DNA from: Ornithinicoccus hortensis
GTDB taxonomy: Bacteria > Actinomycetota > Actinomycetes > Actinomycetales > Dermatophilaceae
DNA length: 64,000 nucleotides
Assembly: GCF_006716185.1 (NCBI RefSeq)
Contig: NZ_VFOP01000001.1
Location: 992,001 to 1,056,000 of the forward strand
Direction of reading: 5' to 3'
Part shown: positions 10,890 through 44,475 of the stretch, in pieces
How positions within the stretch are numbered: the first letter of the stretch is position 1
How the letters are laid out: the number at the start of each line of letters is the position of its first letter
The notes under the pieces: generated by a model
What the model was told of the DNA's origin: nothing
Database searches by the model: none
What the model saw: the letters and a program-made list of their open reading frames with translations, nothing else
Program-made: the position numbers and the translations under genes

Positions 10890-10905
10890 CTGCAGGATTA
10901 TCGGG
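10890..10905 (+). repeat. Left fragment of the palindromic intergenic repeat, split by the IS
   Basis: Sixteen bases ending TTATCGGG are identical to the start of the intact repeat at 44392. Together with the fragment beyond the right end of the IS, they rebuild a near-perfect palindrome with arms CAGGATTATCGGGT and ACCCGATAATCCTG. The break lies in the loop of the palindrome. Confidence 0.85.
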
Positions 10906-10921
10906 ACGCTCCTATGGACCG

Positions 10922-11983
10922 TCAAGGCCTGATCGGGCCTGCTTCGAGCAGGCGGTAGAGATCGCGAGCGATGTAGCGCTTGAGGCAGCGTGTGATTTCG
11001 CGGTTGGTCTTGCCCTCGGCGGTGCGACGGGTGACGTATTCGCGGGTGGTTTGGTCGTAGTGGATGCGGGAGAGCGCGATGGTGTGCAGTGCCCGGTTGA
11101 GCTGTCGGTCGCCGTACCGGTTGAGGCGGTGTCGGGTGGTGACCTGGCCGCTGTTGGCCGGGATCGGGGCTACGCCGGCGAGCATCGCGAAGGCGGCCTC
11201 GGAGTGGATCCGGCCTGGGTGGGACCAGGCGCACAGCACGGTCGCGGCCACGATCGGCCCGACACCGGGCTGGGCCAGGACGTCGGGGCGCCAGGCCAGC
11301 ACGATCGCCCGGATGGCGTTCTCGTGCTCGGCGGCCTCCTTCGACAGGGCACGTGCCCGCCGGGCCAGGGCGCGCAAGGTCCTGACGGTCGTAGTGGTCT
11401 CCAGGTCCCACGTGGAGTTCAGACGCATTTTCGCCGCGGTCCTGATCATCGCCGGGACCTTCTGGCCGCGGAACCGCTCGCGGATCGGCTCGGGCGCGGC
11501 GATGAGGAGGCTGAACAGCTGGCGTTGGGCGTCGGTGGAGGCGTTGACTGCGGACCGGCGCGCGGCCAGCAGCACCGAGAGCGCCTGGCGGTCCCCGCCA
11601 CTGCGCGGGGTGCCGAGCTTCGCGCGGGACAGTGCTTCGCGGGCGGCGCGGATCGCGTCGAGCGGGTCGGACTTGGCGCCGTTACGTCGCTTAGCGCGTT
11701 CGGGACGGTCGAGCTCGACCACGACCTCCTGGTTGCGCTCGAGGTGCCGGGTCAGGCCGGCGCCGTGCCCGCCGGTGCCTTCGATCGCCCACGCCCGCAG
11801 TGCTGCGTGCTCGTTAGCGAACTCCACCAGTCGGGCATAGCCGTCGGTCGTGGCTTCGACGGTGATCTCCTCAAGCACACCGCCGGTCCGCGCGTCGACC
11901 ACGGCCGCTGAGTGAGTCTGGACGTGGGTGTCGACGCCGATGACGGTATCGACGACGTCACGTAGATCGGTCACACTGGTCAT
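10922..11983 (-). CDS. IS110-family DEDD transposase (bridge-RNA-type recombinase)
   Basis: A 353-residue transposase that appears intact. The N-terminal RuvC-like DEDD domain includes IGVDTHVQTHSAAVVD with the first Asp, AIEGTGGHGAGL with the Glu, and KSDPLDAIRAA with the paired Asp residues. The C-terminal Transposase_20 domain includes AQPGVGPIVAATVLCAWSH, AGVAPIPANSG and YGDRQLNRALHTIALSR, which contains the likely catalytic Ser. The ATG at 11983 is favoured by AAGGAGAG six bases upstream and by the family N-terminus. In-frame codons further upstream would lie in the non-coding end. No frameshift or stop is seen. Confidence 0.95.
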   Translation of the reverse strand: MTSVTDLRDVVDTVIGVDTHVQTHSAAVVDARTGGVLEEITVEATTDGYARLVEFANEHAALRAWAIEGTGGHGAGLTRHLERNQEVVVELDRPERAKRRNGAKSDPLDAIRAAREALSRAKLGTPRSGGDRQALSVLLAARRSAVNASTDAQRQLFSLLIAAPEPIRERFRGQKVPAMIRTAAKMRLNSTWDLETTTTVRTLRALARRARALSKEAAEHENAIRAIVLAWRPDVLAQPGVGPIVAATVLCAWSHPGRIHSEAAFAMLAGVAPIPANSGQVTTRHRLNRYGDRQLNRALHTIALSRIHYDQTTREYVTRRTAEGKTNREITRCLKRYIARDLYRLLEAGPIRP

Positions 11984-12242
11984 GCGTTCTCTCCTTGCCT
12001 GGGAGCGGATGTGGTTCCGGTCCGGGGCGGAGACTCGGCAGGACTGTGATGAGACACGACCGGTGCGTGAACACCGGACGGTCAAGCTCCTGATCAGGCC
12101 AACTGCTCCGACCGGGCCGGGGCCGGCAACCCCAAGCGGACAAGTCCCGAGAAAGGCACAAAGCCAGTCACCCGAAGGGTCACACTCACGGTCACCGACC
12201 AACAGCCCAGCACCATCAGGGCTGCAAAGGGAATCCTCACAG
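11984..12242 (-). ncRNA. Candidate bridge RNA region of the IS110 element
   Basis: The non-coding left end (transposase orientation) is where IS110-group elements encode the bridge RNA that pairs with donor and target DNA. Two stem-loops are visible: CAGCCC/GGGCTG at 12203-12208 and 12219-12224, and CCGGTG/CACCGG at 12060-12065 and 12072-12077. A 10-mer AGTCACCCGA (plus strand) at 12166-12175 is repeated exactly at 12241-12250, across the junction with the target palindrome. It is therefore a good candidate for a target guide. RNA ends and loops were not computed. Confidence 0.55.
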
Positions 12243-12310
12243 TCACCCGATAATCCTGTGCTTCGTAGCAGAACCTTCCCGGGACGAAGCGCCAGGTTCC
12301 GGGGTGGAGC
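12243..12310 (+). repeat. Right fragment of the palindromic intergenic repeat
   Basis: From the IS boundary onward the sequence aligns with the intact copy at 44392-44475. It shows ACCCGATAATCCTG, then a conserved block centred on GAACCTTCCCGGGACGAAG, then GCGCCAGGTT and GGGG-rich DNA ending near GGAGC. Differences are scattered substitutions, so the two copies have diverged. The remaining spacer to the DUF488 gene (12311-12382) shows no gene. Confidence 0.85.
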
Positions 12311-12382
12311 GCCCGGCCACCGGGCCGGACGACCGAGTCCTCCGTATGCCGTGCCGCTGCCGCTCTCGCGGCCGGGAGGGCA

Positions 12383-31309: not shown

Positions 31310-31473
31310 GACTGATGCCTTCCTTCACCGGCAGGAACGTGCCGGACGGTCCGTTGTAAAGGATCCCCCGCGGCGGGCGCCCCGGGAGCTCGTCCCGGAA
31401 GCGGCGTCCGGGCCGGCTGAGCATCAGCCGTCACGCGCGACGCTGCCGTGACTGTCTGTTACCGTACTGCAAT

Positions 31474-44297: not shown

Positions 44298-44373
44298 GCC
44301 CCTGTAGCTCAGTTGGTAGAGCATCCGCCTTGTAAGCGGACGGTCGCGGGTTCGACTCCTGTCGGGGGCTCCA
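44298..44373 (+). tRNA. tRNA-Thr (anticodon TGT)
   Basis: The cloverleaf is readable: acceptor GCCCCTG/CGGGGGC, D-arm GCTC-AGTTGGTAGA-GC, anticodon stem TCCGC/GCGGA with loop CTTGTAA giving TGT, a five-base variable loop, and T-arm GCGGG-TTCGACT-CCTGT. The discriminator base is T and CCA is encoded. TGT reads ACA and, by wobble, ACG threonine codons. Directly after it lies the intact palindromic repeat. Confidence 0.96.
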
Positions 44374-44391
44374 CGCAGGCGTGCTGGGGGA

Positions 44392-44475
44392 CTGCAGGAT
44401 TATCGGGTGACCCGGTAATCCTGCGCCTCGTGGGAGAACCTTCCCGGGACGAAGCGCCAGGTTTCGGGGTGAAGC
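44392..44475 (+). repeat. Intact copy of the palindromic intergenic repeat
   Basis: This 84-bp copy begins with a hairpin of imperfect arms CAGGATTATCGGGT and ACCCGGTAATCCTG, then a conserved segment around GAACCTTCCCGGGACGAAG and GCGCCAGGTTT. It is the empty-site counterpart of the copy broken by the IS110 element at 10905/12243. It stands between tRNA-Thr and the SDR gene. No coding frame is evident. Confidence 0.88.

Follow-up and report, generated by a model that had tools for sequence, protein, structure and literature searches.

This locus raises the question of how an insertion sequence comes to interrupt a palindromic repeat of its host, and whether an RNA from its own upstream end could name that site. 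In the window, i.e., the whole analysed stretch of 64,000 nucleotides of Ornithinicoccus hortensis DNA, the element is very probably an IS110-group element with a bridge RNA whose guides read the host palindrome. The positions of the features are collected in Table 1.

Table 1. Features of the element, its predicted RNA and its target (positions are those of the window).
Feature	Position	Strand	Remark
IS110-group insertion sequence, 1337 bp	10906..12242	minus	Identical ends in six copies
Transposase/recombinase, 353 aa	10922..11983 including stop (codons 10925-11983; stop 10922-10924)	minus	IS110 domains
Left non-coding end (LE), 259 nt	11984..12242	minus	Source of predicted bridge RNA
Modelled part of predicted bridge RNA: 5' stem-loop, target-binding loop, donor-binding loop	12036..12228	minus	32-element alignment
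Left target guide (LTG) TCGGGTGACT	12166..12175	minus	Letters 1-9 match left target and shared C; last T is the next LE base
Right target guide (RTG) TCGGG then AC	12144..12150	minus	Complementary to GT (element end) and CCCGA (right target)
Candidate left donor guide AGGAGC	12086..12091	minus	Letters equal RE terminus AGGAGC at 10908-10913; invariant
Candidate right donor guide CTCATCACAG	12044..12053	minus	Complementary to LE terminus CTGTGA(G); nearly invariant
Left target (LT) TCGGGTGA	12243..12250	minus	Runs on into shared C at 12242
Right target (RT) CCCGA	10901..10905	minus	
Left part of interrupted repeat (palindrome arm and asymmetric part)	12243..12320	minus	37 genome matches including itself
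Right arm of interrupted palindrome	10893..10905	minus	
Uninterrupted repeat copy	44390..44475	minus	3' of tRNA gene (44298-44370)
Palindrome variants TGAC, TAAC, TCAC, CCGGGTGAC			
Hybrid outward promoter-like site TTGACG (10925-10920, element), 17 nt, GATAAT (10902-10897, target)	10897..10925	minus	

The element has 259 non-coding nt upstream of its gene, the length that a sequence-only reading of this DNA had given as approximate, and 16 nt after the stop codon. The encoded recombinase matches PF01548 (DEDD_Tnp_IS110; E 5.8e-14, 52.6 bits, cut-off 29) and PF02371 (Transposase_20; E 3.4e-20, 72.7 bits, cut-off 21.3), and 16 aligned proteins show no variation at D18, E68, D106, D109 and S278, so that all DEDD motifs are kept, as that reading had claimed, and the serine is present as well. 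In a profile comparison, the catalytic letters align with those of the IS621 structure 8wt6, firmly in the C-terminal part (i-E 9e-7) and weakly in the N-terminal part (0.04); the comparison is one of aligned letters. The recombinase gives E 2.3e-4 against IS621 in a single-sequence comparison, 5.5e-5 against ISCro4 and 1.8e-11 as a profile. Judged by both domains, the DEDD residues with the serine, the long upstream and short downstream ends, and insertion without target duplication, the element is a member of the IS110 family, IS110 group. Assignment to the IS1111 group was rejected, as the element is without subterminal inverted repeats and without a downstream non-coding region; the only terminal inverted repeat seen is part of the target palindrome and not of the IS. 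The IS621-like subgroup, with a CT core in target and donor, was rejected as well, the right-flank base after C being variable.

Six copies of the element are present in the genome (3.94 Mb, one contig), of which three are identical and two are one base off each, while the window copy departs from the other five by an additional C and a substitution. This near identity is consistent with activity, and the element may be mobile. The extra C lies in a run at 12219-12221 (element positions 22-24), with three C in the window copy and two in the other five, and falls in the 5' part of the predicted RNA. A search of the genome for other copies had been proposed as the test of the guide idea, and all six copies found interrupt the same palindromic repeat (about 84 bp) at one and the same base; all have one orientation with respect to the asymmetric part of the repeat, and their outer flanks are unrelated to each other. 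The flanks of every copy sum to an intact repeat sequence with one common base and no target duplication. Around the window element, 13-bp inverted arms CAGGATTATCGGG and CCCGATAATCCTG lie at 10893-10905 and 12246-12258, the joined flanks read ...TCGGGTGAC/CCCGATAATCC with one C in common, and the palindrome CAGGATTATCGGGTGACCCGATAATCCTG is split after TGAC. This common C, at 12242 on the element strand, is assignable to the element or to the target side. The insertion therefore lies at the border of loop and right arm and not exactly in the middle of the loop; the earlier view that the element interrupts a palindromic repeat stands. The uninterrupted copy that the same reading had seen in the window is also there (Table 1).

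The interrupted repeat belongs to a family in the host genome, with 29 uninterrupted palindromes when three mismatches are allowed and none for a reversed control pattern. A DNA search with the left part of the repeat returned 37 matches, which comprise 35 repeats (29 empty and 6 filled) and two partial tandem units near 2212037-2212159. The partial units are arranged in tandem with a 62-bp period at G000:C1:2211957-2212159, where one of the three matches is a full copy, and another two repeat copies lie 144 bp apart at G000:C1:1196061-1196288. By a rough count on crude gene calling, the repeat lies between convergent genes at 14 of the 31 places listed, among which two repeats appear twice. 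The repeat folds into a hairpin with no compensatory pair, and its Rfam matches are only far below the family cut-offs; therefore, no RNA function of the repeat is claimed. A Y1_Tnp (RAYT-type) partner gene for the family was sought in the genome and none was found. Neither a pattern search (two mismatches) nor a DNA search (E <= 0.001) detected the repeat in 30 other genomes of the genus. One of these genomes contains a related element with 81% protein identity (by its contig position probably locus L023, Ornithinimicrobium pekingense), with a different guide and a different left target; no other genome passes E 1e-100. The host thus has both a repeat that these 30 congeners lack and an element with a guide that fits it.

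The 10-mer AGTCACCCGA, noticed in the sequence-only reading at 12166-12175 and 12241-12250, is indeed repeated there, and the match is really 11 nt long (CAGTCACCCGA, 12165-12175 and 12240-12250). The 10-mer alone is statistically weak, with 3 matches found when one mismatch is allowed and an average of 6.4 in shuffles of the window. It consists of the left target guide and one base of the element's own end, and therefore matches the recombined junction rather than the empty site. A second guide patch (12144-12150), unnamed in that reading, also follows its target across relatives. The two guides occupy element positions 68-77 (LTG) and 93-99 (RTG); LTG copies the top strand and RTG the bottom strand, and in the relatives parsed each keeps its place in a conserved fold, the two facing each other across an internal loop. 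The interpretation of the 10-mer as a target guide is thus supported by the six copies in one repeat, the patches that follow targets across relatives and the conserved RNA fold. The element's own DNA at LTG itself forms a perfect left target; self-insertion would then presumably be prevented by the right guide.

Within the genome, the exact 13-mer TCGGGTGACCCGA occurs uninterrupted nine times in 3.94 Mb, always inside the repeat family, and its one-mismatch versions occupy 50 further strand-places. Among the 35 repeats with a readable palindrome (29 empty and 6 filled), 13 match the left guide perfectly in the orientation used, and all six insertions are among these (hypergeometric P = 0.0011); when both strands are counted, 18 of 70 strand-sites match (P = 0.00014), both site counts being taken by eye. 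Repeats in which TAAC, TCAC or CCGGG replaces the guide letters are all empty. Seven repeats in the used orientation and five on the opposite strand are still empty despite a perfect left match.

Strong evidence for the guides comes from relatives with 60-86% protein identity, in which left ends and flanks were read. Conservation of their left ends is strong and is broken by a few variable stretches, of which two show the behaviour of guides. One patch precedes a conserved GACTGGC and has the same letters as the end of the left flank; the other precedes a conserved GAC(N)TGTCC and is the complement of the start of the right flank. In 25 elements (the window element and 24 relatives with complete junctions), LTG and LT agree at 132 of 150 places over six variable positions (shuffled mean 68.7, maximum 99), and RTG and RT at 73 of 100 over four positions (shuffled mean 40.0, maximum 60); in neither case did any of 20,000 shuffles reach the observed score. 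Keeping one element per distinct left guide (n = 18) gave 96/108 on the left and 50/72 on the right, again with 0/20000 shuffles each, and sliding the LTG register of these 18 by one to three bases lowered the score from 96 to 15-37. Right-side matches by base after C were 24, 22, 14 and 13 of 25, i.e., they fade past two bases. The usually constant GAC is GGC in relative L046, in guide and flank alike. Poor left matching (six to eight of ten letters) was seen in relatives L048, L155, L153, L081, L052 and L044. These 25 element-target pairs, among them 18 distinct left guides, make a compact set, and their quantified covariation indicates, from sequence, how an RNA-guided IS of Actinomycetota follows its target.

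The 25 elements remain from a first parse of 37 after removal of seven duplicates and five elements whose flanks were cut by contig ends. A looser parse of 36 elements gave 185/216 on the left and 88/128 on the right (32 with a right flank), with 0/20000 shuffles as high. It includes four plasmid-borne Rhodococcus and Pseudonocardia elements fetched afterwards, with 6, 4, 6 and 3 matches on the six variable left positions; these come from four of the ten plasmid records listed out of 128, rows with near-identical scores being omitted. The first guide parse missed L023, L027, L036, L037, L047 and L051, of which the wider parse recovered the first four. In the wider parse, 26 of 62 entries were left out (seven duplicates; the others truncated at a contig end, incomplete, or lacking an end or guide anchor that could be read), the gene start of L154, for which no gene is annotated, was placed by comparison with L153, and L035, L022 and L078 were misread, which lowers its score. 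GACT and GAC served as anchors, with CTGTGAGG and AGGAGCGT as ends, to locate the patches, so the constancy of these anchors and ends is not evidence in those parses; the GT before the right flank was added by script in both guide parses. L022 and L024 come from one genome with a common left flank and are therefore not fully independent. At a contig end of L022 (about 2640-2745), two left ends of one IS are separated by about 100 bp and an N adjoins the second, which reflects either a nested insertion or an assembly join.

The upstream end, in which hairpins had been noted, was found to have a conserved fold with compensatory pairs, from which a covariance model based on relatives was built. 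The consensus fold of 32 elements (alignment A2) consists of a 5' stem-loop, a long stem with an internal loop and a further stem-loop. The internal loop carries LTG on its 5' side and RTG on its 3' side, around a GGC/GCC hairpin, so that fold and guide matches together give the structured RNA with a target loop expected of a bridge RNA. Compensatory change occurs in 13 of 56 pairs, against 5.2 (sd 1.3) in shuffles, none of 500 being as high, and slid structures pair 34-45% of cells against 96.6% for the consensus fold. The single sequence of the window copy gives a modest signal (z = -2.4; 4 of 200 shuffles are as stable). No bridge-RNA family was matched in Rfam by the window or, at a lenient threshold, by the element, hence the model was built from relatives; an msiK RNA motif was found elsewhere in the window, at 31313-31371 on the minus strand (RF01747, 59.7 bits), unrelated to the element. 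In the host genome, covariance model R1 finds six places, exactly the six element copies, and no RNA copy outside them was seen among the 150 of 6682 first-look candidates that were scored. At 25 IS110 loci outside the model, R1 matched 20 at E <= 0.01, each upstream of the transposase and on its strand; of the other five, L092 is borderline (0.035), and L051, L086, L087 and L096 have no credible match. A second match in L056, a Nocardioides MAG, is located beside the first on the other strand (2416-2608, minus) and suggests neighbouring or nested IS110 elements.

The further stem-loop of the fold carries candidate donor guides. The left one has six letters only and is predicted to be partly paired in the consensus fold. 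Both are invariant or nearly so, which leaves no room for covariation.

Other explanations of the pattern were weighed. The six copies might stem from duplication of a repeat-plus-element unit or from homologous recombination between repeats, since they are nearly identical and share one orientation relative to the repeat. The repeats around them nevertheless differ, e.g., GGATTATCGGG and GGATTCTCGGG, or CTTCGTCCCGGG and CTATCGACCGGG, and the outer flanks are unrelated; gene conversion between repeats, possible in principle, leaves the guide-target covariation in other genera unexplained. We regard this origin of the copies as quite improbable. It is very unlikely that the recombinase itself recognises the palindrome, by DNA structure or by sequence, with the 10-mer a coincidence: the target is indeed a near-perfect, cruciform-prone palindrome and the 10-mer alone is not striking, whereas relatives with 60-86% identity use very different targets that track the RNA patches, and the filled repeats all have a perfect left match. 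The matches between LE and flank could also be target letters captured by imprecise excision, in keeping with the identity of the LTG letters to the left target; against this, LTG and RTG occupy fixed places of the fold in the relatives parsed, LTG copying the top strand and RTG the bottom strand, which makes capture exceedingly remote.

With guides that read the host palindrome, the repeat family of about 84 bp would be a set of ready landing sites, six of them filled. By analogy with the published IS621 system, the circular form of the element would join its ends and thereby make a junction promoter, from which the upstream end would be transcribed into the bridge RNA. One internal loop of this RNA would read the palindrome halves with two short guides (TCGGGTGAC and CCCGA, on opposite strands), while a second loop would read the element's own joined ends. 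The RNA would bind the recombinase, and this complex would exchange strands site-specifically at the shared C, top strand before bottom strand, so that circle and palindrome are joined with no target duplication. The circular intermediate, junction-promoter transcription, RNA-protein complex, strand-exchange chemistry and any present-day activity are taken over here from IS621.

Most parts of this scheme have counterparts in described systems. According to the IS621 reports (PMC11208160, PMC11208158), IS621 likewise has a DEDD recombinase with a serine, an RNA from the left end with the order 5' stem-loop, target loop and donor loop, a 5'-side LTG that pairs with the bottom strand and a 3'-side RTG that pairs with the top strand, and extragenic palindromes as targets; the RTG followed by donor-matching bases resembles the handshake guide described in PMC11208158. 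Different from IS621 and its orthologues, for which these reports give CT in target and donor, one C is shared here; moreover, the protein is weakly similar, and the target repeat looks by eye unrelated to the enterobacterial REP sequences quoted there. A study on seekRNA of ISEc21, of IS110 type (PMC11187229), also describes an upstream non-coding region, no target duplication and an RNA that matches both target strands, apparently in the same order, and reports natural retargeting in the ISEc21 relative ISMch6. The target of ISEc21 is described there as linear, in IS3-family transposase genes, whereas the present one is a palindromic intergenic repeat. A repeated extragenic palindrome as landing site is also known from REP-inserting IS elements, described in a 2006 paper, before guide RNAs were known (PMC1525189). 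Taken together, the element appears to be a natural case of an already described RNA-guided mechanism, for which the sequence-only support is unusually good, and the novelty, which is modest, would be in a one-base core and a hybrid promoter.

On these two points a further, tentative reading is proposed, which we consider somewhat less probable than an even chance: in this clade, the visible crossover may be confined to one C, the target guides may largely fit the recombined products (LT-C-T and GT-C-RT), and each insertion in the host repeat may add an outward promoter. Compared with intact repeats, the six left junctions read as target up to GAC and then the element's T, and the six right junctions as element up to GT and then C plus target. 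Among the 25 elements, the left-end base after C is T in all (25/25, the end being sought with at most one mismatch to CTGTGAGG), and the right-flank base after C is G in 15, C in seven, A in two and T in one. In all 50 related right junctions, T stands before and C at the start of the flank; the right end carries GT, except that L079 and its duplicate L034 have TT and seven Nonomuraea fragments AT. These exceptions lower the odds for a crossover at C. Across 32 elements the right guide has an invariant GAC at its end, which complements the GTC of the element, though the target of the window element has GAC there; the left guide closes with CT, whatever base (G, C, A or T) follows C in the target. 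Guides written to the recombined products would thus mismatch the empty target beside C.

Target and element visibly share C alone, preceded by A in the target and by T in the element, and since they differ at both neighbours, natural junctions narrow the visible exchange to one base, while the shared CT of IS621 hides the place of exchange within two. We read this as top-strand cleavage directly after C, with C as the conserved base of the core. Staggered cuts and handshake pairing are described for IS621 in PMC11208158, and therefore one visible base need not equal a one-base stagger; a longer heteroduplex with biased repair could also be behind the one visible shared base. If the reading of a crossover at C is true, the guides of the clade would naturally be of a "post-exchange" kind, with C as the core in place of CT, and the clade would offer a divergent C-core recombinase group for bridge-recombination work.

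As for promoters, TTGAC is kept in the right end of 50/50 related junctions, as expected for a circle-junction promoter, and would serve there as -35 box. The left end offers GAGGAT as a possible but weak -10 partner, and no box pair with at least four of six consensus letters each turned up when the circle junction was scanned, so this step is taken from the published system by analogy. In addition, the element end and the target together make an outward promoter-like site, which agrees with the consensus at 10 of 12 positions, with one such site found against 0.1 in shuffles. This hybrid site is present in 6/6 copies in the host (the window copy and L002-L006) and in 0/50 related junctions, seven of which are duplicates.
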